Part shown: positions 18,471 through 55,674 of the stretch, piece after piece
Layout: the number at the start of each line of letters is the position of its first letter
How positions within the stretch are numbered: position 1 is the stretch's first letter
Origin: Vreelandella neptunia
GTDB taxonomy: Bacteria; Pseudomonadota; Gammaproteobacteria; Pseudomonadales; Halomonadaceae
NCBI RefSeq assembly: GCF_000712975.1
Contig: NZ_JHQL01000005.1
Location: forward strand, 186,001 to 250,000
DNA length: 64,000 bases
Direction of reading: 5' to 3'
Notes under the pieces: model-generated
What the model was told of the DNA's origin: nothing
Database searches by the model: none
The model's input: the letters and a program-made list of their open reading frames with translations, nothing else
Made by a program: the position numbers and the translations under genes

Positions 18471-19142
18471 TTACCCCTCAGCCTGCTGCCGTAGCAACAA
18501 CTCAACGCGCCGGTTGGCAGACCTGCCTTCCAGCGTTGCGTTACTTTCCATGGGTTGGGTATCGGCATAGCCGACTGCCCGCATGCGTGAAACAGCCACT
18601 CCCTGACGCTCAAGGTGACGGACAACGGCAATCGCACGCCCTACCGACAGTTCCCAGTTTGAGGGGAAACGCGATGTGGCAATAGGAATGTTATCCGTAT
18701 GGCCTTCTACCGAAATTTGACCATCAAAGGAATCTAATACAGTCAGAAGGCTTTCTAACACATCTTGCCCTTGTGGCGTTAATACAGCGTCTCCACTAGG
18801 AAAAAGCAAACTATCGTCAATGCGCAGCGTAACACCTTCTTGTCCCTGAGAGACACTTACCCCTGGGATATTAACATCTGCCATCTGTGGCTTTAGTCCG
18901 CTGTAGCGAGGATGGATACCCGTTGCCAAGCTGGCCAATGGAAGCGAGGTAATAGCAGTGGCTGAGCGCATCCGGTCATTATCAGAGGCTTCGCCACCGC
19001 CCGGTGGCGTTAAGGCAAGCAGCAACACAAACAGCGTGATTAACAGCGTCAACACGTCTAGGTAGCTGGTAAGCCAGCTTTCATCTCCTTCACCGGAAAC
19101 AGGGGGTAGCTCTAATGCATGCCGTGAATCCCGATCAAGCAT
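18471..19142 (-). CDS. motD: Flagellar motor stator protein MotD (second MotB-type)
   Basis: 223 residues. One N-terminal membrane helix (about 24-45) contains the proton-pathway Asp in SYLDVLTLLITLF. A C-terminal OmpA-like peptidoglycan-binding domain has VEGHTDNIPIATSRFPSNWE and RVELLL. With MotC it forms a stator complex that powers rotation in pseudomonads, additional to MotAB, which is also present in this window. It is short compared with MotB (306 residues here), typical of MotD. It lies four bases after motC. Confidence 0.85.
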   Translation of the reverse strand: MLDRDSRHALELPPVSGEGDESWLTSYLDVLTLLITLFVLLLALTPPGGGEASDNDRMRSATAITSLPLASLATGIHPRYSGLKPQMADVNIPGVSVSQGQEGVTLRIDDSLLFPSGDAVLTPQGQDVLESLLTVLDSFDGQISVEGHTDNIPIATSRFPSNWELSVGRAIAVVRHLERQGVAVSRMRAVGYADTQPMESNATLEGRSANRRVELLLRQQAEG

Positions 19143-19146
19143 CGCG

Positions 19147-19962
19147 CTATCCTTTTGCCGCAGGGCTAGCCGTTGGTCGCGGCTTTACCGTGGCATCGCG
19201 AATTTCGTCATGATAATTGACGATAAAGGAGTTAAGCGTTTCTTCAATAAATGAGGGTAGGCGTCGTTTGGTAATCAGGGAAATGCCTTCCAACACCATG
19301 TTCATGGTGATGAGTCGCTCTTCCGTTCGCCGCTCTAGCTTGACGGCAATAGGCTTGAACACTAGGTTAGCCAGCAAAATACCATAGAACGTTGTCAGCA
19401 GGGCTACTGCCATACGCGGGCCAATAACATCAAGATCTCCCGCATCCATTACTTCCAGCATATTGACCAACCCCACCAATGTGCCAATCATACCGAAGGC
19501 GGGCGCGTAGGTGGCCATGGTACGAAATATCTGCGCCTCAGCATGCTCTCGCGCTTTTAATCGTGCGATGCGCCAGCGCAACATATCGAAAATTTCGTCT
19601 TCTTTTGTATTCGCAATTACTAATTGAATGCCGGTGCGCAAAAAGGGGTTTCGAGTATGCTCTAGCTCCTTTTCAACCGCCCTGACATCTCCTTTAAACC
19701 ATAGCCGCGCCATGGAAACCAGCTCGTTAATGTCATCGCGCACATAGGTATTTTCACGCCGAAAGACTAGGCCTACTAAGCGCACTACACGGAGCACTTC
19801 CTTCAGTGGATAACTGATAAAGGTCGCTGCCAAGGTACCCGTCACTACAATGGCTAACCCCGGTAAATTAAGAAAACTCTCAGGTGACTCTGCGGTAAAA
19901 AACAGCACGCTTACTAGCAATACCATGCTGGCAAAAATGCCGATCAACGTAGATGGATTCAT
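19147..19962 (-). CDS. motC: Flagellar motor stator protein MotC (second MotA-type)
   Basis: 271 residues from ATG 19962 (GAGGAG six bases upstream; a TTG directly before it is less likely). Four membrane segments are visible, at about 8-25, 32-50, 150-170 and 180-202, with the large cytoplasmic loop between segments 2 and 3 and the conserved PAFGMIGTLVGLV. As a MotA/TolQ/ExbB-family protein it forms the ion channel ring with MotD. It lies downstream of fliA as in Pseudomonas, where fliA, motC and motD belong to one flagellar cluster. Confidence 0.87.
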   Translation of the reverse strand: MNPSTLIGIFASMVLLVSVLFFTAESPESFLNLPGLAIVVTGTLAATFISYPLKEVLRVVRLVGLVFRRENTYVRDDINELVSMARLWFKGDVRAVEKELEHTRNPFLRTGIQLVIANTKEDEIFDMLRWRIARLKAREHAEAQIFRTMATYAPAFGMIGTLVGLVNMLEVMDAGDLDVIGPRMAVALLTTFYGILLANLVFKPIAVKLERRTEERLITMNMVLEGISLITKRRLPSFIEETLNSFIVNYHDEIRDATVKPRPTASPAAKG

Positions 19963-20001
19963 CAACGGCTCCTCGCCGGTTATTAGCGATTTAAATAGGT
20001 C

Positions 20002-20703
20002 TTAGGCGGCATCATACAAACGAGCACGAAGCCTGCTAATTGCTTGGCTGTGGAGCTGGGAGACGCGAGACTCAGTCACGCCCAGTACTGCTCCCACTTC
20101 TTTAAGGTTCAGTTCTTCTTGGTAATACAGCGCCATTAACAGCTTTTCGCGCTCGGGCAACGCCTCAATAGCATCAATTAACGACTGGCGCTGCTGGTGG
20201 TCTAACAGCTGATCGAAGGGCAAATTGTTTGCATCTTCTTTTGCTGGCTCACTCCCTTCGGCCACTAGCTCTTCAAAGGGCAGTAATTGACCACTATTAG
20301 TATCATTGAGTAATTGTTGATACTCATTCAGAGGCATTGCTAAATCCCGCGCAATTTCGCTCTCTTCTGGCGGGCGTCCTAACTGCTGTTCAAGGCGTCT
20401 CACTGTATTATCGACGGCCCTAGCAGAGCGACGGACGCTACGAGGCAACCAGTCACGCGTGCGCAACTCATCCATCATAGCGCCGCGAATACGCTGGCTT
20501 GCAAACGTGGCAAATGTTGCCCCCTGGGAAGCATCAAAACGCCCCAACGCTTCTAATAAACCCACCATGCCCGCCTGAATAAGATCATCTAACTCAATAC
20601 TCGCGGGTAATCTTACCTGCAGCGTTAAGGCCTGACGCCTTACCAGTGGCATGTATTGAGTTAACAGCTCGCTCTGTTTAATCCTGCCTTGTGCTGTATA
20701 CAT
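20002..20703 (-). CDS. fliA: Flagellar sigma factor FliA (sigma-28)
   Basis: 233 residues with sigma-70-family regions: region 2 (DLIQAGMVGLLEALGRFD, then ATFASQRIRGAMMDELR), region 3 (RSVRRSARAVDNTVRRLE) and region 4 (LKEVGAVLGVTESRVSQLHSQAI). It directs RNA polymerase to late flagellar and chemotaxis promoters of the TAAA-N15-GCCGATAA type, several of which are visible in this window. It sits between flhE and motC. Its antagonist FlgM is not in the window. Confidence 0.95.
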   Translation of the reverse strand: MYTAQGRIKQSELLTQYMPLVRRQALTLQVRLPASIELDDLIQAGMVGLLEALGRFDASQGATFATFASQRIRGAMMDELRTRDWLPRSVRRSARAVDNTVRRLEQQLGRPPEESEIARDLAMPLNEYQQLLNDTNSGQLLPFEELVAEGSEPAKEDANNLPFDQLLDHQQRQSLIDAIEALPEREKLLMALYYQEELNLKEVGAVLGVTESRVSQLHSQAISRLRARLYDAA

Positions 20704-20729: not shown

Positions 20730-21203
20730 TCACTGGTAGTTCACGATCACTTGCAATTTCTGCACTCGCACTGGTCGCTGGCCCGGTGCTAATGAGAAAC
20801 GAAAGTGCAGCGGCCCATCCACCTGTTTACCGGCTAATGCTGAAGTCATCCCCCGCATTGCCGTTAAGGGAACGCACTGTTCAGGATGACATAGCCACGC
20901 ATTCACTGGCGTATTGGCTGGCATTTGAAAGCGCCAATGAATACGCCCTATCACAGCACCTTCTACCTGTGCCTCCGTTGGTGGTTCAATAGGCTGGCTA
21001 CTGATTGCGCGGTCACTCATCGTGACAAACACGCTGGGTACCTCTGTACTCCAACTTCCAGTCGCGGCATAGACACTTCCGCTGACAACGCTTAGTGCCA
21101 CCATCGCTATGCTTTTGAGCAGTCGAGCGGGCGTTGGGCCAACGGCTAACCAGCCGATTTTAAAGCTAACATTTTTTGGGCTAGCATTTTTGAAACAAAT
21201 CAT
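20730..21203 (-). CDS. flhE: Flagellar periplasmic protein FlhE
   Basis: The mature part matches enterobacterial FlhE: GSWSTEVP near the N-terminus, WRFQMP, the Cys pair in WLCHPEQCVPL, LHFRFSLAPG and the exact C-terminus QVIVNY. FlhE acts in the periplasm during rod and hook assembly and limits proton leak through the export gate. I chose ATG 21203 (157 residues), which leaves a long N-region before the signal core SIAMVALSVVSGSVYA. The frame is open to a TTG at 21347 without support. The start codon overlaps the stop of a 22-codon ORF (TAATG). In enterics flhE directly follows flhA; here flhF and a FlhG-like gene intervene. Confidence 0.82.
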   Translation of the reverse strand: MICFKNASPKNVSFKIGWLAVGPTPARLLKSIAMVALSVVSGSVYAATGSWSTEVPSVFVTMSDRAISSQPIEPPTEAQVEGAVIGRIHWRFQMPANTPVNAWLCHPEQCVPLTAMRGMTSALAGKQVDGPLHFRFSLAPGQRPVRVQKLQVIVNYQ

Positions 21204-21271
21204 TAGGTGAAAACTTCTTGCGTCACATGTGTGTTGCGGCGGTGCTTCTTGAAACTGGTAGGCAGGTGCAT
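21203..21271 (-). CDS. Possible 22-residue leader ORF coupled to flhE
   Basis: ATG at 21271 is preceded by AAGGA seven bases upstream, a better ribosome-binding site than that of flhE. The ORF encodes a basic 22-residue peptide (MHLPTSFKKHRRNTH...) and stops in TAATG, sharing one base with the flhE start codon. It may be a translational-coupling leader. It could also be fortuitous, because 22 codons carry little statistical weight. Confidence 0.35.
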   Translation of the reverse strand: MHLPTSFKKHRRNTHVTQEVFT

Positions 21272-21336
21272 TGTTATTCCTTATAAAAGCACTGGATACC
21301 GCAGTTAAGACGCGGCCACATTGCGTCAGGCTAGCG

Positions 21337-21960
21337 TTATCGCGCAAGCAGTAAAAGCTCTATATCCAGATAGTAACGGGCTGCTTCTCGTAAGTTATCG
21401 AGCAGGCCTCTGCGCGACAAATGAGGCTCATGCAATGCTAACAACTGCCTTGGACCACCGTTTTCATGCACGTGTCGAAGAACACGATACATCTGTGCGA
21501 AGGCATCAGCATCGCTATTAATCCACAAGGCCCAGCGCGAGTAGCGAGCTTTCAGTTGGCTAAGGTCGTCGGCTTCAGCATTAACGATGCGAATGTCCCA
21601 ATCATCCGGATCACCAGCCCAGCGACGGCCTAATACCGACCACTGCGCCAAGCGACCTTTTACTTTTGCCACCTGCTGCTCTCCACCGTTAAGCAGACCA
21701 ACCACAATAAGCGGCTTTTGCGGAACTGGCGTTGGCGTTGGCGTTGGCGTTGGCGTTGGCGTTGGCGTTGGCGTTGGCGTTGGCGCAGCGATTAACGGCG
21801 ACATTATATGATCTGTCGTATTCTCCCGTGGCTCAACCGCCAACTTCTCTTCCACAGGCTCGCCCCCAGCAGGTTCGCCCTCTACTGATGGCACTTGGCG
21901 CTGCTGGCGCTGTAAATCTGCCCACTTGCGAAGGCCCGCCGCCTGATCGTCGGCGCTCAT
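21337..21960 (-). CDS. FlhG-like protein with FlhF-activator motif but no Walker A
   Basis: 207 residues, overlapping the flhF stop by four bases (ATGA coupling). Residues 5-11 read DQAAGLR, an exact match to the DQAxxLR motif with which FlhG/YlxH N-termini stimulate FlhF GTPase. Residues about 55-80 are a Thr-Pro repeat. The remainder (IVVGLLNGGEQQVAKVKG, then WINSDADAFAQMYRVLRHV and LREAARYYLDIELLLL) follows the strand-helix layout of the FlhG MinD-like domain. It lacks GKGGVGKT, however, and is far shorter than FlhG (about 280). The position between flhF and fliA is where fleN/flhG lies in Pseudomonas. I infer a degenerate FlhG that may keep the GTPase-activating function. Alternatively it is an unrelated protein that converged on the motif. 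Confidence 0.6.
   Translation of the reverse strand: MSADDQAAGLRKWADLQRQQRQVPSVEGEPAGGEPVEEKLAVEPRENTTDHIMSPLIAAPTPTPTPTPTPTPTPTPTPVPQKPLIVVGLLNGGEQQVAKVKGRLAQWSVLGRRWAGDPDDWDIRIVNAEADDLSQLKARYSRWALWINSDADAFAQMYRVLRHVHENGGPRQLLALHEPHLSRRGLLDNLREAARYYLDIELLLLAR
21728..21781. repeat. Hexanucleotide tandem repeat (GGCGTT)9
   Basis: Nine perfect copies of GGCGTT on the plus strand, encoding a Thr-Pro run in the minus-strand FlhG-like gene. Because the unit is six bases, copy-number change would lengthen or shorten the linker without breaking the frame. Confidence 0.95.
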
Positions 21961-24176
21961 ACCAGCCCCTCTCGGCTAACGCTGCTAAGTTGGCGAATAG
22001 CATCACGCGCCATAAACGCGTGGACAAGCGCATCTAACATCGCTGTATCGCGCCGTTTGCGCGCGGTGCCCAGTAGTCTTAATAGATCGGAACGCAGCGC
22101 TACCGACGCCTCATCGCTAGCAGCATCTAGGTGCCCCACTGTTGCAGCGATACCACTGGCCATCAACAAGCGCACTTCGGTACTTACCTCACCGTTATCC
22201 GCCTCTTTCAACTGCTGCCAAGCACGTTTGGTTAGGCTCGATAACCCTTCGCTTTGAAGCTGGATAACCAGCAGCGAAAGTACGTCTGCGCCTAATCGGG
22301 CAGGCGTTAGCCAGTAACGACGCGCGATACGTTTGCCATTTTCCGGATCACGAACATCACCAACCCATGCCAATAGCGGAGTGCCAGCGGCATCTTCCAC
22401 CTTGATATAAGTACCCCATAGCTGCATCGTTTGGCCACGAAAGCGCAGATCAGTGTGATGTGAAAGCGGGCTATCTGTGAATAGCTGGCGCTGGGTATAA
22501 CGTTCGCCCTGACAGTATACCCGCTGGGCAGCCGTTACTAGTGTGATCCAAGTCAGGTGTTGGTCTTCTAGCCACGCTAACGTGGTAGGGTCAGGGAATA
22601 CAGGTAGCAAATGTACTGCCGCTCCCATCGCTTCACCCTGGTGTAACAGCCGTGTGTGCCAACCCGCTGGTTGACGATGCTGCAAGCTGGTTAACGCAAG
22701 CCAACCACCGTCTGCATCTATTCCGACATCAGGCATCGTCCAGTCACAGCCGCGTTCGTTTCGGCGGGGAAACCATGCCATGCCTAGCCCCTTTCCCGCA
22801 CAAGGCACGCTTACTAATAGCGCATCGAGACGTTTATCTTGCAGCACGCCAGGCAAAGAGGCGATATCCCAGACAGACTCTAACGCTGAGAAGCCGACCA
22901 CCCTGTCACGTAGCCGCGTCAGTACAGAGCTAAGGCGTCGGCCTTGGCCAAGCACGTCGCGGGACCAGCGTGGCAAAGTTACCGACTGAGCACCCATTGA
23001 ATTCCCTGCAGCAGGGAAGCTGCGTGACTCTTTCCCTTGGTTTGGATGAGCGGTAAGCGCTTGGTCAATTAATGCAGCAGGGTCAGCAACCGCCATATCC
23101 TCAGGAACCTGCTGTCCGTAAGAACCGAATAGCACGCGCATGCCATGGCGCATGACGATATCAAGCACGGGCGCTAAACGTCCGGCTTCGTCCTGCTTGG
23201 TAATAATACAATCATCTAACTCAGCGCCTGCTGCCCGCGCCGCTTGGCGATAGCGCAATACGACCTCTTCCAGCGTTTCAGGCTGGCTGGCGGCATTCAG
23301 CAACAGCACTAATCGCACGGAGGCTTTCCCGCCTTGCAACTGAGCAATTTGCTCAATCACACGCTGGTCCCGCTGGCTCATACCAACGGTGTCGATAATC
23401 ACCCATTGCTTACCTTGCAAACGACCTACTAGCTCATCTATCGGTTGTTCGGTATCTAAGGCGTACATGGGGGTATCAAGCAACCGGGCATAGATTCGCA
23501 GCTGCTCGTGGGCACCAATGCGGAAGCTGTCGGTGGTGACAAGCGCCACGGGACGCGTCCCATGGCGCATCACAAAACGTGCTGCTAACTTAGCCGTGGT
23601 AGTCGTTTTACCCACCCCCGTTGGCCCCACCAGCGCCACAATACCCGCCTGATCAAAAAAGCCGTTCTCCTCTTTTAATACAGGCAATCGCGCCATTAGC
23701 TGGTCACGAAGCCATGCCATAACAAGCGTGCTATCAGCCTCTGGCTGAGCCAGTGCCGCTGGCAGTTCAGCGAGCACTTCGTCACTTAGCTCTTCGCTAA
23801 AACCAATGTTCAACAGCTGCTGGCGTAATCGAGCTTGAGGGGCGATGTAACCCTCTGTAGCAGGCAGCTCGGCAGCTGGCTGCCGCTGAGAAAGCAGCTC
23901 ACGCATCTCCTGCATCTCACGCAGTAAGCGCTCACTCATCACTTGAAGCGGATCAGAATCGCGTGGTGGGAATGCCACCTGAGAAACAGAAGTAGACGGT
24001 GGGAGCGCTGAGGGGGAAGGCTCGAAATGATCGACGGCTTCATCTGCCATCGCCAAAATTTCAACACCGCCCTCGGTACGACGATTGGCCACAATTAAAG
24101 CGTCCTCGCCCAATGCTTCACGCACTTGGCGCATCACATCACGACTGTTTGCTCCAACAAACCGTCTTACGCTCAT
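21957..24176 (-). CDS. flhF: Flagellar SRP-like GTPase FlhF with long C-terminal extension
   Basis: 739 residues. The N-terminal B domain (MSVRRFVGANSRDVMRQVRE) and NG GTPase domain have P-loop GPTGVGKTTTT at 184-194, TDSFRIGAHEQL near 215-226, DTVGMSQRD at 262-270 and TKQDEAG at 326-332. The GTPase ends near residue 375. The remaining ~360 residues are not part of known FlhF (usually 370-490 residues) and I do not recognise a domain there. FlhF places polar flagella and recruits FliF in polar flagellates. Here it follows flhA by about 50 bases and overlaps the FlhG-like gene. Confidence 0.92.
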   Translation of the reverse strand: MSVRRFVGANSRDVMRQVREALGEDALIVANRRTEGGVEILAMADEAVDHFEPSPSALPPSTSVSQVAFPPRDSDPLQVMSERLLREMQEMRELLSQRQPAAELPATEGYIAPQARLRQQLLNIGFSEELSDEVLAELPAALAQPEADSTLVMAWLRDQLMARLPVLKEENGFFDQAGIVALVGPTGVGKTTTTAKLAARFVMRHGTRPVALVTTDSFRIGAHEQLRIYARLLDTPMYALDTEQPIDELVGRLQGKQWVIIDTVGMSQRDQRVIEQIAQLQGGKASVRLVLLLNAASQPETLEEVVLRYRQAARAAGAELDDCIITKQDEAGRLAPVLDIVMRHGMRVLFGSYGQQVPEDMAVADPAALIDQALTAHPNQGKESRSFPAAGNSMGAQSVTLPRWSRDVLGQGRRLSSVLTRLRDRVVGFSALESVWDIASLPGVLQDKRLDALLVSVPCAGKGLGMAWFPRRNERGCDWTMPDVGIDADGGWLALTSLQHRQPAGWHTRLLHQGEAMGAAVHLLPVFPDPTTLAWLEDQHLTWITLVTAAQRVYCQGERYTQRQLFTDSPLSHHTDLRFRGQTMQLWGTYIKVEDAAGTPLLAWVGDVRDPENGKRIARRYWLTPARLGADVLSLLVIQLQSEGLSSLTKRAWQQLKEADNGEVSTEVRLLMASGIAATVGHLDAASDEASVALRSDLLRLLGTARKRRDTAMLDALVHAFMARDAIRQLSSVSREGLV

Positions 24177-38951: not shown

Positions 38952-39872
38952 TCATTCGTCTTCACCGCTCTGTGGCGTGCTTAGTGGCAACGCCTCTAGA
39001 GGCGCATCGTCATCGGGCAATGGGTTCTCAAGATTCATAATGCCTGGGTTGCGTATCGTCTCGGCAATTTCTGGCAGCAAGACAACAAGCTCAATACGCC
39101 GATTGATAGGATCAGTCGGCGAAGTGTCAGGCAACTTAGCACGATCAGCAAAGCCCGATACGCGTAGCAGTTGATCTGGGTCAAGCCCGCCGGTAACTAA
39201 TTCACGCCGAGAAGCATTAGCCCGATCGTTGGAAAGTTCCCAGTTGCTATAGCCGCGGTAGCCACCAGCATAAGGCACGCTGTCGGTATGGCCGCTGATA
39301 CTTAGATCGTTGGGTAACTCATTCAATAACGGTGCCATGGTGCGTAATAAATTACGCATGTAAGGTGCGACTTGATCGCTACCAAGTTCGAACATTGGCC
39401 GCTGCTCTGTATCTAATAGCTGGATACGCAACCCTTCGCGGGTTAAATCAAAGCGCATTTGATTACGTAACTGGCGCAGCTCTGGGTCTAGCTCAATGGC
39501 ACGCTCAATGCGCGCCTGCACATCGTTAAAGAAGCGCCGTTCCTGAGCGCTGGGGCGACTATACTGCAGCACATCCACGCGGGCGCGTTCGCCATCGCTG
39601 TGGGTGGGGTCTGGGCCGCCCCCCGGAATCACTTGAGTGCTGCCCGACCGATCGCCACTGGTCATTGCCGTTATGAGCGGCGTGCTGAAGTACTCAGCAA
39701 CTCCACGACGTGTTTCATCGTCGGAAACACTTAAAATCCACATCACTAGAAACAGTGCCATTAAAGCGGTCATAAAATCAGCAAGGGCAATTTTCCACGC
39801 ACCGCCATGGTGAGCATGCACCACTTTTTTGCGCCGAATAATAATCGGACGTTTATCGCCCCCCTTACTCAT
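38952..39872 (-). CDS. motB: Flagellar motor stator protein MotB
   Basis: 306 residues. A single membrane helix at about 28-50 contains the proton-binding Asp in LADFMTALMALFLVMWIL, followed by a plug/linker and an OmpA-like peptidoglycan-binding domain with ISGHTDSVPYAGGYRGYSNWE. It anchors the MotAB stator to the cell wall. It overlaps motA by four bases and precedes cheA, as in the enteric motAB-cheAW operon. Confidence 0.95.
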   Translation of the reverse strand: MSKGGDKRPIIIRRKKVVHAHHGGAWKIALADFMTALMALFLVMWILSVSDDETRRGVAEYFSTPLITAMTSGDRSGSTQVIPGGGPDPTHSDGERARVDVLQYSRPSAQERRFFNDVQARIERAIELDPELRQLRNQMRFDLTREGLRIQLLDTEQRPMFELGSDQVAPYMRNLLRTMAPLLNELPNDLSISGHTDSVPYAGGYRGYSNWELSNDRANASRRELVTGGLDPDQLLRVSGFADRAKLPDTSPTDPINRRIELVVLLPEIAETIRNPGIMNLENPLPDDDAPLEALPLSTPQSGEDE

Positions 39873-40738
39873 GCATTACCGCTCTTTTTGGCATCACGAA
39901 CGTACTCTTCTAACTCTGCAAAACTTGGCCGTTCAGCGGTATGTAGCGCTTTGCGACCAAATTCAACCGCTAGTTGCGGCGCATAGCCGTGTAAGCTAGC
40001 CAGTAAGGTGACACGTATGCACTGCAGCATCTTCTCTGCTTCTTTAGCTTGCCGCTCGGCGTAGCTAGCCACGGGGCTAATAAAACCATATCCCATTAAA
40101 ATACCAAGGAAGGTACCGACCAACGCGAGGGCAATCATCTCCCCCATTTGGGCAGGACTAGCATCAGCGTAAGTCAGTGCTTTAATAACCCCCATGACGG
40201 CAGCAACGATGCCAAAGGCAGGCATTGCATCGCCCACTTTGGCAATGGCATCGATAGGGATATGTGCCTCTTGCTCGAAGGCTTCAATTTCATGGAGCAT
40301 CAGCTCGTCAATTTCCATCGGCTCCATACCGCCACTCACCATCAAACGCAGATAGTCAGTTAAAAAGTCCATAATATGCGGATCAGCAAGTACGGTCGGG
40401 TGCTCTTGAAAAAGCGGGCTTTCTTGGGGGTTATCAATATCGCGCTCTATCCCCAACATTCCTTCGCGGCGAATTTTAGAGAGCAGCTTGTACTGCAGTG
40501 CCATCAGCTCCATATACAACGCTTTGTTATACTTTTTGGCGCGTTTGAGTCTGGGAAAGATTTTGAATGTTGCCTTAATGGCTTTGCCATTGTTCGCGGC
40601 AATAAATGCGCCTATGCCAGCGCCCCCAATCATAAGCAGCTCTGTTGGCTGATAGAGAGGGCCTAAGCTACCGCCTGCCAACACATAACCGCCGAAGACA
40701 GATAGCAGTACGACCAAATAACCCAGAGGAATCAGCAC
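39869..40738 (-). CDS. motA: Flagellar motor stator protein MotA
   Basis: 289 residues starting at GTG 40738, with AAGGAT eight bases upstream. Four membrane helices (about 3-22, 34-50, 170-190, 200-222), a large cytoplasmic loop, and VGDAMPAFGIVAAVMGVIKAL typical of E. coli-type MotA. It forms the torque-generating ring around MotB. It belongs to the enteric-like MotA subfamily and is clearly different from the shorter MotC at 19147-19962. Confidence 0.95.
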   Translation of the reverse strand: MLIPLGYLVVLLSVFGGYVLAGGSLGPLYQPTELLMIGGAGIGAFIAANNGKAIKATFKIFPRLKRAKKYNKALYMELMALQYKLLSKIRREGMLGIERDIDNPQESPLFQEHPTVLADPHIMDFLTDYLRLMVSGGMEPMEIDELMLHEIEAFEQEAHIPIDAIAKVGDAMPAFGIVAAVMGVIKALTYADASPAQMGEMIALALVGTFLGILMGYGFISPVASYAERQAKEAEKMLQCIRVTLLASLHGYAPQLAVEFGRKALHTAERPSFAELEEYVRDAKKSGNA

Positions 40739-40963: not shown

Positions 40964-41488
40964 TCAACACCGCGCTTTACGCGTCTTCCCAGCCCGCGAA
41001 GGCGGCTGACAAATGCCACAGACATACTCGTGGGTTGGACTATGAGCATGGGCAACAAAGTGCCCACCACAGCGGGTACACGTATTAAGCTGCAGTAAAT
41101 CGCTTTCAAAAAATCGTACTAGCGTCCATGCGCGGGTTAGGCCCAACACCGGCTCAACGCCTTCTAAATTTATCTGCTCTTCATACAAGCGATAGGCTTT
41201 GACAAAGGCATCAATACGTTCACAACGGGTGTTGTTTTGTACGCTGTGATAAATGTTATAAAACAGCGACGAATGTACGTTAGGCAACCATGTCACGAAC
41301 CAGTCAGCAGAGAAGGGCAGCATCCCTTTGGGTGGCGACATACCGCGTACTTCCTTGTACAGCTTGATCAGGCGCGTGCGACTTAGCTCTGTTTCTGTCT
41401 CCAATACTTGTAACCGTGCACCTAATTCAATCAGCTCTATGGCCAGCTGTACTTGGTGCATTTCATCAACCAAGCTTTTCTGGCTCAC
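40964..41488 (-). CDS. flhC: Flagellar master regulator subunit FlhC
   Basis: 174 residues starting with GTG, overlapping the flhD stop by four bases. The zinc-binding site CTRCGGHFV...YVCGIC near the C-terminus (CxxC...CxxC) and [24 protein letters not shown] are as in E. coli FlhC. With FlhD it forms the heterohexameric activator of class 2 flagellar operons. It lies upstream of motA, as in enterics, separated by 225 bases. Confidence 0.95.
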
Positions 41489-41817
41489 ACTGACTCTCCT
41501 ACAGGCAGTGTTTCAAACGCCTCACCAGCTGACAACAATGACGCATGTAAGCCTGAAAGCCCTTGATCCCGAGGGTTTTCGGTGATTTTTCGCAGCTGAT
41601 GGGCACTGGTTTGGCTCAGACGACATATTAGCTGATTGTTACGTGCCAACTTTGTCAGCTGTCGAGCGTTAAGAGACACGAGCAAATCTGCAAGCTCGCT
41701 ATCTACTTTTAGGCGAAACATTGCCGCCTCACGGTCTTCGACCAATAATCGCTGCGCAAGAAGTAAATACGCTAAATTAATTTCCTGAATTTCATCGAGA
41801 AAGCTTGTTTGACTCAT
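41485..41817 (-). CDS. flhD: Flagellar master regulator subunit FlhD
   Basis: 110 residues (116 in E. coli). Family features are [17 protein letters not shown] at the N-terminus and the DNA-contact region [12 protein letters not shown]. It forms the FlhD4C2 complex that activates class 2 flagellar genes, replacing the FleQ/FlrA hierarchy of Pseudomonas and Vibrio. The start is preceded by TGGA. Upstream, 104 bases separate it from the FlhB-like gene and must hold its promoter. Confidence 0.94.
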
Positions 41818-52988: not shown

Positions 52989-54761
52989 ATGACTATTGAG
53001 CTATTGCTAACCATGCAGGGTCAGGGGGCGAGCGCGTCATCAAGCCACCCTGCCGCCTCTAGCTCCCCGCGTGCGACACATGGCATGTTCCTTCAGGCGT
53101 TGACCCAGGCTGCAACAAGCCAACATCAGGCACGCACGCCCACTAACGCTCAGGCAGAAAACACGTCAACCGTTCCATTGAGCGATATCGTTGACCAGAT
53201 AGCATCTCTCGATAGTGAGCTGGATGGGGAAGCGTTGGCGAACGTAGTGGCAAACGTAGCAGCAAATGTCGTGGCGAATGTAAACGCACACAAACAGCCT
53301 GCTGATAACCGCGCCACTAGTATCGATACCCAGGCATCTAGCCAATCGCTAGACATAGCACCAGCAGCGCCAGAGCAAGCGCTGACATCTGAACACGCTT
53401 CCGCGTTACTGGCCAACGACAGCGCTGAGACCTCGACACCGATAACTATTGAAGAGGTCGCTGCGCGCTTAGCCCTTATCGCTTCGTATTCTGCGCCGTC
53501 ACCGGTGCGCAACGAAGCGGTTTCCAGTGCCAGCACTAACAGTGCAGCGCCAAAAGCAGCCTCAAGCCTAGAAACGGCGACTACTCAAGCGTCGTCGGAT
53601 AATCCTTCAGATAGCCATTCAGATAGCTATTCAGATAGCGTGAAGCCTGCTAACGCTTCACCTTTCGCAGCTTCTTTTTTTGAGCACACAGCACTACCAA
53701 TGCACACGGCGTTAGCTGATCGCGCGTTAGCCACGGAGCCTACTCCACTGGCACGGACACAAGGTCAGAATCAGACTCAAACACTGAGCCCTAACCAGCT
53801 GCCGTCTGTGCCAACATCTTTTACGGCGGCAAATAGTGGCGCTTCCTCTGTAGCGCCACAGCCAGCAGCACAGGCAGCGGCTAATACTAGCTCGCCACCG
53901 GTGGCGTCTTCCACGACGAATCTTGCCACGCCTGAGGCACTGTCAGCAGCTGCGCCCAGTGCCAACGCCGCACCAGCCGCGCCGCCGTTGACTGCTAATG
54001 GCGGCACGACTAGCGCTACTATGCCTATCGTTACTATGCCTACCGTTACGATGACCAACGCTAGTACGGCCACCGCGCTGCAGGACACTCCCACCAGCGC
54101 TATCCCACGTGAGGTGCAGATAGCACTCACTGGCGAAAGCGCCGTGGCAAACGCACCGCAAGCGGCACAAGCGCTAACACAGGCCACAACACAGGCAGCA
54201 GCTAATACTGGTTCGCCACCGGTGGCGTCTTCCACGACGAATCTTGCCTCGCCTCAGGCACTGTCAGCAGCTGCGCCCAGTGCCAACGCCGCACCAGCCG
54301 CGCCGCCGTTGACTGCTAATGGCGGCACGACTAGCGCTACTATGCCTACCGTTCCTAGGCCCACCGTTACGATGACCAACGCTAGTACGGCCACCGCGTT
54401 GCAGGACACTCCTACCAGCGCTATCCCACGTGAGGTGCAGATAGCACTCACTGGCGAAAGCGCCGTGGCAAACGCACCGCAAGCGGCACAAGCGCTAACA
54501 CAGGCCACAACACAGGCAGCAGCTAATACTGGTTCGCCACAGGTGGCGTCTTCCACAACGAATCTTGCCTCGCCTCAAGCACTGTCAGCAGCTGCGCCCA
54601 GTGCCAACGCCGCACCAGCCGCGCCGCCGTTGACTGCTAATGGCGGCACGACTAGCGCTACTATGCCTATCGTTACTATGCCTACCGTTACGATGACCAA
54701 CGCTAGTACGGCCACCGCGCTGCAGGCTGCAAGACACTCCCACCAGCGCTATCCCACGTGA
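52989..54761 (+). CDS. fliK: FliK N-terminal (ruler) fragment upstream of the frameshift
   Basis: 590 residues. It starts MTIELLLTMQGQGASASSSH after GAGGAGC and contains the secretion and ruler part of FliK. Short internal repeats occur near residues 78-98 (ANVVANVAANVVANV) and 206-218 (SDSHSDSYSDS). Then come three 107-residue repeat units from about residue 299, the last broken. After the shifted segment the peptide ends ...AARHSHQRYPT. It lacks the Flg_hook domain, so by itself it could be secreted but could not terminate hook growth. Confidence 0.8.
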   Translation: MTIELLLTMQGQGASASSSHPAASSSPRATHGMFLQALTQAATSQHQARTPTNAQAENTSTVPLSDIVDQIASLDSELDGEALANVVANVAANVVANVNAHKQPADNRATSIDTQASSQSLDIAPAAPEQALTSEHASALLANDSAETSTPITIEEVAARLALIASYSAPSPVRNEAVSSASTNSAAPKAASSLETATTQASSDNPSDSHSDSYSDSVKPANASPFAASFFEHTALPMHTALADRALATEPTPLARTQGQNQTQTLSPNQLPSVPTSFTAANSGASSVAPQPAAQAAANTSSPPVASSTTNLATPEALSAAAPSANAAPAAPPLTANGGTTSATMPIVTMPTVTMTNASTATALQDTPTSAIPREVQIALTGESAVANAPQAAQALTQATTQAAANTGSPPVASSTTNLASPQALSAAAPSANAAPAAPPLTANGGTTSATMPTVPRPTVTMTNASTATALQDTPTSAIPREVQIALTGESAVANAPQAAQALTQATTQAAANTGSPQVASSTTNLASPQALSAAAPSANAAPAAPPLTANGGTTSATMPIVTMPTVTMTNASTATALQAARHSHQRYPT

Positions 54762-54851
54762 GGTGCAGATAGCACTCACTGGCGAAAGCGCCGTGGCAAA
54801 CACACCGCAAGCGGCACAAGCGCTAACACAGGCCACAACACAGGCAACGGC
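53882..54851. repeat. Three tandem 321-bp repeats inside fliK
   Basis: Units at 53882-54202, 54203-54523 and 54524-54851. The first two are exactly 321 bp (107 codons) and the third is 328 bp because of the 7-nt insertion at 54726-54732. Copies differ by only a small number of substitutions, several concentrated in the ATGCCTAYCGTTMCTA segment. Sequence similarity ends at ACAGGCAACGGCTC near 54849. Confidence 0.93.
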
Positions 54852-55674
54852 TCATTTAGGCTCCTCATCGCTGGCCAGTGCCTTGGCAGCTGCAACACAG
54901 CAAACGGTTAGCAATACCTCTCTACGCCCAACCACACCAACTGCTAACGCGCGGTCTGCGGAAACAGTCAGCTCTCCAGCCAATGCCCCGACCTTAATAG
55001 CATCGCTGGAAACTATTCCAACCCAGCCGTTTACTACCATGCCACCAGGCATGCACGCGCTTTCTCCACTCAATACTGCACTCGCATCAGCACCTGCCAT
55101 GAGCGCTGACGCGATGGTCGGTTTGCCTGCTGATGCAGAATCAGCGAATACAATCAACAGCACTAGCAAAGGCAGCGAGCAATCGTTGCCTACATCGCTA
55201 ACTTCTCAACCTCAACCAATGCCTAACAGCCCAGCATCAGCCACGTTAAACACGCCGTTTACCAGTCCCGCATGGCCTTCTCAGCTAGGGCAACAGCTGA
55301 TTCAATTTGCTCAGCGCGGTGGAGAGCATCAGGTTAAAATGCAGCTGCACCCTACCGAGTTAGGGCCTTTGTCGATCACTCTTAAGGTGACTGAACAGGG
55401 CACCCAAGCGCACTTTTTATCGTCACATGCCCCCGTTCGTCAGGCGATTGAGCAAGCTATTCCTCAATTGCGTGAAGCACTTGCTGAGCAGGGTATTTCA
55501 CTAGGTGAAACCTCAGTAGGTGAGCAGCAAACTCCCAACGAGCAGGCCTTTGCTCAGCAAATGCCTAACCAAACCGCTGGTGATCGCCTCACTGAGTCAG
55601 GCGGCGAAAGCGTGCCACTTAAAGAGACAAGCACTCTCTCGTTGCAGGATGGTCGTGTCGATCTCTATGCCTAA
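54763..55674 (+). CDS. fliK: FliK C-terminal fragment with Flg_hook domain
   Basis: Open frame of 303 residues beginning at a GTG one base after the upstream TGA. The FliK C-terminal switch domain is at about residues 160-255 (QLIQFAQRGGEHQVKMQLHP, ELGPLSITLKVTEQGTQAHF, APVRQAIEQAIPQLREALAEQGI). No proper ribosome-binding site precedes the GTG, so separate translation would depend on reinitiation. Its first ~25 residues (ALTGESAVANTPQAAQALTQ) are the end of the third repeat unit, showing that this frame was once continuous with the N-terminal fragment. Confidence 0.8.
   Translation: MQIALTGESAVANTPQAAQALTQATTQATAHLGSSSLASALAAATQQTVSNTSLRPTTPTANARSAETVSSPANAPTLIASLETIPTQPFTTMPPGMHALSPLNTALASAPAMSADAMVGLPADAESANTINSTSKGSEQSLPTSLTSQPQPMPNSPASATLNTPFTSPAWPSQLGQQLIQFAQRGGEHQVKMQLHPTELGPLSITLKVTEQGTQAHFLSSHAPVRQAIEQAIPQLREALAEQGISLGETSVGEQQTPNEQAFAQQMPNQTAGDRLTESGGESVPLKETSTLSLQDGRVDLYA

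Follow-up and report, generated by a model that had tools for sequence, protein, structure and literature searches.

A putative FlhG-derived pseudo-ATPase of the Halomonadaceae that keeps the DQAxxLR motif next to an extended FlhF

The window, meaning the whole stretch of 64,000 nucleotides that was analysed, carries on its minus strand a series of flagellar genes in the order flhB, flhA, flhF, mini-FlhG gene, flhE, fliA and a motA/motB-like pair (flhB, flhA and the mot genes being named by reading of their open reading frames). The mini-FlhG gene (21337-21960, minus strand, stop codon included) encodes a protein of 207 amino acids, mini-FlhG, which we regard as a probable FlhG-derived pseudo-ATPase. 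Its coding part, with an ATG start, occupies 21340-21960 and its stop codon 21337-21339; the plus-strand frame at this place is rich in stop codons. The gene starts within the last codons of flhF (21957-24176, minus strand), with an overlap of four bases at 21957-21960. FlhF, the partner GTPase, has 739 amino acids and scores 224.5 bits against TIGR03499, above the cut-off. On the other side lie flhE (20730-21347, minus strand; Pfam FlhE, E 1.8e-17 over residues 113-205 of the open reading frame, the true start of which is probably internal) and the flagellar sigma factor gene fliA (20002-20703, minus strand), which matches Pfam sigma-70 regions 2, 3 and 4 and is named by position and reading. 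The window also holds the master regulators flhC and flhD (40964-41817, minus strand; Pfam FlhC, E 1.3e-87, and FlhD, E 4.2e-30). Two motA/motB-like pairs recognized by reading of open reading frames (18471-19965 and 38952-40738) suggest two stator sets. A fliK-like frame, also named by reading (52989-55674), contains long internal repeats and is split within the repeat region into frames of 590 and 303 amino acids.

A preliminary description of this locus had reported a product of 207 residues overlapping flhF by four bases, with DQAAGLR at residues 5-11 and no P-loop; all of this was confirmed, and the strand is minus. The DQAAGLR motif (21928-21948, minus strand) begins an enhancer-helix region formed by residues 5-21 (21898-21948, minus strand). 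It is followed by a disordered, hypervariable linker at residues 22-80 (21721-21897, minus strand) and by a shrunken FlhG/MinD-like domain without a P-loop at residues 81-207 (21340-21720, minus strand). The Thr-Pro linker of the preliminary description is real: a hexanucleotide array of 9.8 perfect copies of a six-base unit at 21727-21785 codes for (Thr-Pro)n. It is not conserved, being missing from short members of the family and four residues longer in a genome marked as the same species (L007), so linker length differs between strains. Neither Pfam nor NCBIfam recognized a domain in mini-FlhG, giving only weak matches of which most lie over the Thr-Pro tract, and PHROG matches (E 2e-4) that overlap the same tract were set aside.

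The AlphaFold2 model of mini-FlhG (mean pLDDT 83.6) consists of a helix at residues 8-21, a linker of low confidence (blocks of pLDDT 55-85) and alternating strand and helix elements from 82 to 204, the last being a strand at 201-204. Most blocks of the domain exceed 90, and the domain is modelled as a complete five-stranded alternating alpha/beta fold. By reading of the translation, the 207 residues contain neither a Walker A motif nor a DADLG stretch. The canonical Walker B motif is likewise absent: IRIVNAEAD, the sequence aligned with the Walker B strand, lacks the [VI]DTAAG of canonical FlhGs. There is no C-terminal membrane-targeting sequence, for the aligned part stops at position 208-221 of FlhG profiles of 286-291 positions, and beyond it mini-FlhG has only a few further residues, its chain ending where FlhG continues to the membrane-targeting sequence. 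Provided that the structural alignment is correct, FlhG strand 1 and helix 1 appear to be retained while some 80 middle residues are missing, among them the A' segment, which has presumably been deleted. The evidence for a retained strand 1 is the model, since the sequence-profile match falls short of that strand: it begins at position 90 of the FlhG profile for the long clade and at 133 for all members.

The closest named relatives of mini-FlhG come from Vreelandella (formerly Halomonas) species, and the family is taken from the records of these relatives to be the Halomonadaceae. Matches to mini-FlhG were found in 70 of 82 genomes of the same genus and, by single-sequence search, in 76 of 151 genomes of the family, some of these being short repeat matches; flhF is present in 124 of the 151. 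Loci were fetched for all 18 flhF-bearing genera of this 151-genome sample, 14 of which possess an extended FlhF of about 720-870 amino acids. With the window's genus excluded, and with L069 and L092 uncounted as having no usable flhF, 31 fetched loci from 13 genera have an alignable extended FlhF. In 29 of these, from 12 genera, the next gene encodes DQA(A/S/Q)GLR (24 DQAAGLR, three DQASGLR and two DQAQGLR), in proteins with as little as about 21% identity to mini-FlhG. The motif is thus kept in orthologues, and, with the window's own genus counted, 13 of the 14 sampled genera that possess an extended FlhF have the gene. The two exceptions belong to genus g8 (L079 and L080), where extended flhF is directly followed by flhE, without a mini-FlhG gene, and where FlhF has DTVGVGQRD as its G3 motif and SKTDE as G4. 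Seven loci of four other genera (L075-L078, L088, L089 and L094, of g3, g5, g22 and g24) have a short FlhF of about 420-470 amino acids, and no FlhG gene was seen behind flhF in any of the seven. In ten genomes searched with the FlhG profile (seven of these four genera and three of g8), the best matches scored 92-109 bits, a level like that of MinD.

The 78 motif-bearing proteins collected from the family range from 135 to 295 amino acids, and none contains GxxxxGK[ST]. An alignment of 43 members has nine invariant positions: D5, Q6, A7, G9, L10 and R11 of the motif, and L104, W114 and L202. Eighty named loci were also retrieved with a pattern built on DQA[AS]GLR, by which construction the motif is present; its frame is open in 79, with Walker A in none and GxxxxGK[ST] in none of the 79 frames. 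The eightieth, L241 of Halomonas olivaria TYRC17, encodes the DQAxxLR start and has its frame broken in the linker. Records labelled Stutzerimonas stutzeri K1, Aliidiomarina shirensis and Pseudomonas linyingensis (L276, L277 and L279) contain a long flhF and a mini-FlhG of this type, which suggests that the flagellar module has been transferred.

The origin of the C-terminal domain was addressed by profile comparison with hhalign, the motif having been removed from both sides. The most informative reference was a set of FlhGs that we label Burkholderiales-type; the label is inferred from tblastn of two of the proteins, whose best named matches, at no more than 43% identity, were Burkholderia and Cupriavidus plasmids. 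The domain of the long clade matched this set with a probability of 96% (E 3.3e-9, score 61.1), in keeping with the FlhG ancestry proposed in the preliminary description. The short clade (g2, g4 and g15), compared separately, matched the same FlhG region with E 1.2e-8, and a combined profile of all members scored 65.0. In 100 column shuffles the best scores were 17.2 for the long clade and 16.7 for the combined profile, and the reversed profile scored 13.7. The Burkholderiales-type profile in turn matches canonical FlhG with E 7e-63. Compared with canonical FlhG directly, the long clade scored 22.6 (E 0.012), and two of 100 shuffles scored higher (25.1 and 23.8); this match is weak, so the claim of ancestry is not rested on it alone. 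All members combined scored 29.4 against canonical FlhG (E 0.001, probability 21%, best shuffle 18.2). The link to FlhG is thus mainly transitive, by way of the Burkholderiales-type proteins. When 177,635 PDB sequences were searched blindly by profile, FleN took the first three places, with E 0.012-0.014.

The fold itself discriminates less, and it leaves some room for an origin outside FlhG, a DQAxxLR helix having been attached to another Rossmann-like fold (of the receiver or the flavodoxin type). VIA-align ranked FlhG first (Z 7.2 and 7.0), superposing model residues 80-206 on FlhG residues 21-224, but a Z of 7.2 is common by chance and receiver domains (6.8) and EF-Tu (6.7) come practically level with it; a fold match alone was therefore rejected as proof of FlhG ancestry. 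Foldseek placed flavodoxin first (E 7e-4) and FleN thirteenth. Such an origin is nevertheless very improbable, as the sequence profiles pick out FlhG, each of two subclades matches the same region of FlhG, and the gene sits in the flhG position beside flhF. The profile comparisons indicate that residues 81-207 descend from FlhG. The preliminary description had likened this part to the second half of FlhG; the derivation from FlhG stands, but the model aligns from FlhG residue 21 to 224 and so is not confined to the second half.

The Burkholderiales-type FlhGs are also informative in their own right, as they share with mini-FlhG a retained DQAxxLR motif and a decayed P-loop, and two of the loci (L147 and L148) have an extended FlhF as well. 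Twenty-two such flhF loci were examined, namely L137, L143 and 20 chosen, with preference for long FlhFs, from the 82 of 120 genomes of the order that possess flhF. Nineteen (L137, L147, L149-L159 and L161-L166) have a gene encoding DQAxxLR. The full GKGGxGK[ST] is found in none of these 19 proteins, and only its GK[ST] end is kept in four (L154, L157, L162 and L164). Their alignment is invariant only at five motif residues (D, Q, A, L and R) and at one lysine. Eighteen of the 19 have 231-307 amino acids, with the P-loop decayed to differing degrees. The remaining one, L158, has 117 amino acids, below any Halomonadaceae member, and its helix is joined directly to the C-terminal part; it parallels mini-FlhG in keeping the helix within a shrunken protein. 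Elsewhere, L143 and L160 have the gene without the motif, and no DQA gene was found within 1.3 kb after the extended flhF of L148. This series may represent intermediate stages of ATPase loss. The closest annotated match to one of these FlhGs, at 43% identity, is from Burkholderia glumae, which has multiple polar flagella according to PMC3885665, so decay of the ATPase may not be strictly tied to peritrichous cells.

Selection on mini-FlhG was estimated from 94 pairs of sequences of the window's genus and near relatives, only pairs with unsaturated synonymous change being kept. The ratio dN/dS was 0.10 for residues 1-24, 0.35 for the linker (residues 25-80) and 0.09 for the domain. Helix and domain are thus under similar purifying selection, and neither looks like decaying sequence. 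Because the dead domain is constrained as strongly as the helix, mini-FlhG is probably more than an activator peptide. The preliminary description had proposed an FlhF activator stripped of ATPase control: the motif is indeed kept and the ATPase motifs are lost, but a reading as nothing more than an activator peptide does not fit the dN/dS of the domain.

These ratios bear on two alternative explanations. Mini-FlhG might be a relic that does little and is near loss, the ATPase having decayed first and full loss following, as in g8 and L148. The two g8 loci with flhE straight after flhF, the lack of a DQA gene in the 1.3 kb inspected at L148, and the genes without the motif at L143 and L160 could be read as the last steps of such a process. 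A ratio of about 0.1 in both helix and domain over the 94 pairs argues against it, as does the presence of the gene in 13 of 14 genera with extended FlhF and of a match in 70 of 82 genomes of the same genus, and we consider a relic improbable. Alternatively, mini-FlhG might be an adaptor first, its domain tethering FlhF to the C-ring, the export gate or the FlhF extension, and its helix serving mainly as a binding tag. The constraint on the dead domain would be expected of an adaptor, canonical FlhG binds C-ring proteins according to PMC12826062, and L158 has kept the helix together with only the C-terminal part of FlhG. However, the domain differs greatly from genus to genus whereas the motif residues D, Q, A, L and R are fixed, and an invariant glutamine would be needless in a mere tag. 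An adaptor role remains a sizeable minority possibility, and we favour activation of FlhF as the main function of mini-FlhG.

The genome that contains the window is 100% complete, and a search with the canonical FlhG profile found no canonical FlhG in it, which settles for that class of protein the matter of a second flhG raised in the preliminary description. Three matches were obtained, identified by reading as MinD, ParA and a Mrp/NUBPL-family protein; again by reading, MinD has MinE-like and MinC-like genes as neighbours and ParA has a ParB-like gene. The best match scored 97 bits, versus 349-434 bits for held-out canonical and FleN-type FlhGs. An FlhG as decayed as those of L137 or L150 (14 and 34 bits) would escape this search, and the exclusion therefore applies to a canonical FlhG alone.

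A full-length FleQ is likewise absent from this genome. The FleQ domain was found in frames of 498-536 amino acids in all four sampled FleN-type genomes, versus a frame of about 500 amino acids in none of 16 other genomes, 15 of which gave no match at all. The genome of the window has one FleQ-domain match, in a frame of 240 amino acids (32.5 bits, the Pfam cut-off being 22); it was rejected as FleQ because FleQ-type frames have about 500 amino acids, and is taken to be another regulator. The flagella of V. titanicae, which has a mini-FlhG orthologue (L211), are peritrichous according to PMC5907407, and other Halomonas species are likewise described as peritrichous (PMC4148996, PMC8014003). 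Given the peritrichous flagella of a relative that bears the gene, and the lack of a full-length FleQ, the earlier proposal that FlhF placement is uncoupled from FlhG counting is plausible. The flagella of enteric bacteria are thought to have been transferred from betaproteobacteria, flhF and flhG having either not come along or been lost (PMC12826062), and the Halomonadaceae could be a stage related to that transfer.

FlhF itself appears equipped for GTP hydrolysis. Its SRP-type GTPase domain (23055-23642, minus strand; Pfam SRP54, E 7.4e-30, residues 179-374) contains GPTGVGKT, DTVGMSQRD and TKQDEA, and the corresponding GPTG[VIA]GKT, DT[VL]GMSQRD and TKxDE are intact in FlhF of all 29 motif-bearing loci, which is consistent with an active GTPase. 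In g8, the genus without mini-FlhG, FlhF breaks 15 of 60 otherwise invariant columns of the G domain, versus 0-3 in the 12 other genera. The g8 FlhA fragment has also diverged (13 of 67 columns, only nine of the 31 loci holding this fragment), and in the same nine-locus subset g8 breaks 43 of 111 columns of the FlhF G domain and 24 of 47 of the extension. Because g8 has diverged in FlhA too, covariation between FlhF and the helix is at most suggested by these counts. The tract [SG]QRD of FlhF occurs in 29 of 29 motif-bearing Halomonadaceae loci and in one of 20 order-level loci (16 having been dropped for lack of an FlhF match). It was rejected as an FlhF mark of the helix, since it is also present in g8 and in several class-level loci without DQA, and lineage explains its distribution equally well.

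The C-terminal extension of FlhF, residues 388-739 (21960-23015, minus strand), is shared with the Burkholderiales-type FlhFs of L147 (E 5.8e-13) and L148 (E 1.5e-6), both tested by profile, and a single-sequence search with it found matches in two of 274 genomes of the class, both of the family. Its model (pLDDT 92.7, pTM 0.90) resembles Tn5 transposase: Foldseek gives Tn5 transposase or the Tn5 inhibitor in each of its first six places (E 5.9e-7 to 5.6e-6, the next match being at 0.047), and VIA gives Tn5 structures Z scores of 14.9 to 11.4, the next row being 7.0. Sequence comparisons are fainter. The extension profile A4 scored 25.6 against seven Tn5-like frames (E 0.027, probability 1.8%; the highest of 60 shuffles reached 23.1), a Halomonadaceae-only profile scored 18.6 (E 0.21), and no Tn5-type Pfam match was found in 30 members. 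Four columns of A4 are invariant (W49, W156, A286 and R308), and none of them is D or E. The 352 C-terminal residues of FlhF are thus predicted to have a Tn5-transposase-like fold, and may possibly be an exapted transposase fused to a flagellar GTPase. No description of a transposase-like FlhF was found in the titles and abstracts of the open-licence literature.

FlhG has two activities: its helix stimulates the GTPase of FlhF, and an ATP-driven cycle of the protein limits the number of flagella. The DQAxxLR helix is reported to stimulate FlhF through its glutamine, a co-catalytic element (PMC12826062). With a probability of roughly 70%, we interpret mini-FlhG as an ATP-independent activator of the FlhF GTPase, derived from FlhG, that has kept the helix and a collapsed MinD-like domain. 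It would be made in step with FlhF from the overlapping genes, and its helix would dock on the GTP-bound FlhF homodimer, giving Q6 as the co-catalytic glutamine. FlhF would then hydrolyse GTP and the dimer would fall apart, resetting the system. Having neither a P-loop nor a membrane-targeting tail, such a brake could not be gated by an ATP and membrane cycle; it may be constitutive, or it may be steered by a partner of the dead domain, such as the C-ring, the export gate or FlhF. The binding to FlhF, the stimulation of its GTPase, the constitutive action, the partner of the domain and the reason for the loss of the ATPase are all what we infer from sequences and models.

ATPase control may have become dispensable in these bacteria because they rely on FlhDC rather than FleQ and keep no count of polar flagella; the reliance on FlhDC is thus a possible reason for the loss. 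A broader and rather doubtful interpretation is that the whole FlhF-FlhG switch was rebuilt in the Halomonadaceae, with an ATP-independent activator, and with the Tn5-like fold of FlhF and the dead domain of mini-FlhG replacing the spatial cue once provided by ATP and membrane. If this were true, peritrichous flagella would be placed by GTP alone. Mini-FlhG would represent a natural separation of the two jobs of FlhG, the helix motif being frozen and the ATPase erased in a lineage with peritrichous members, and it predicts that activation of FlhF is useful even without ATP-driven counting.

No description of an ATPase-less FlhG that keeps DQAxxLR was found in the open-licence full-text literature, nor any of P-loop decay in Burkholderiales-type FlhGs in the literature searched. 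Mini-FlhG is thus apparently undescribed, although such a search is not proof of absence. With FlhG, YlxH, FleN and MinD2 it shares a gene position after flhF and a homologous alpha/beta domain, and the N-terminal DQAxxLR helix occurs in that family; class-level FlhGs with both DQAxxLR and a P-loop exist, and DQAxxLR was found in none of 22 order-level FlhGs (from 30 loci, the FlhGs being picked by their P-loop). Unlike FlhG and YlxH, mini-FlhG lacks Walker A and a canonical Walker B, has apparently lost the middle segment, ends before the membrane-targeting C-terminal part, and has a variable linker between helix and domain. The preliminary description had noted that the gene sits where fleN/flhG lies in Pseudomonas. 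The parallel holds for gene position and for the MinD-like fold, but Pseudomonas FleN has a P-loop and, according to PMC12713375, lacks DQAxxLR. A more distant likeness is to the SRP RNA that acts on Ffh-FtsY (PMC12826062): it too is an external activator of an SRP-type GTPase dimer, but it is an RNA, not a protein.
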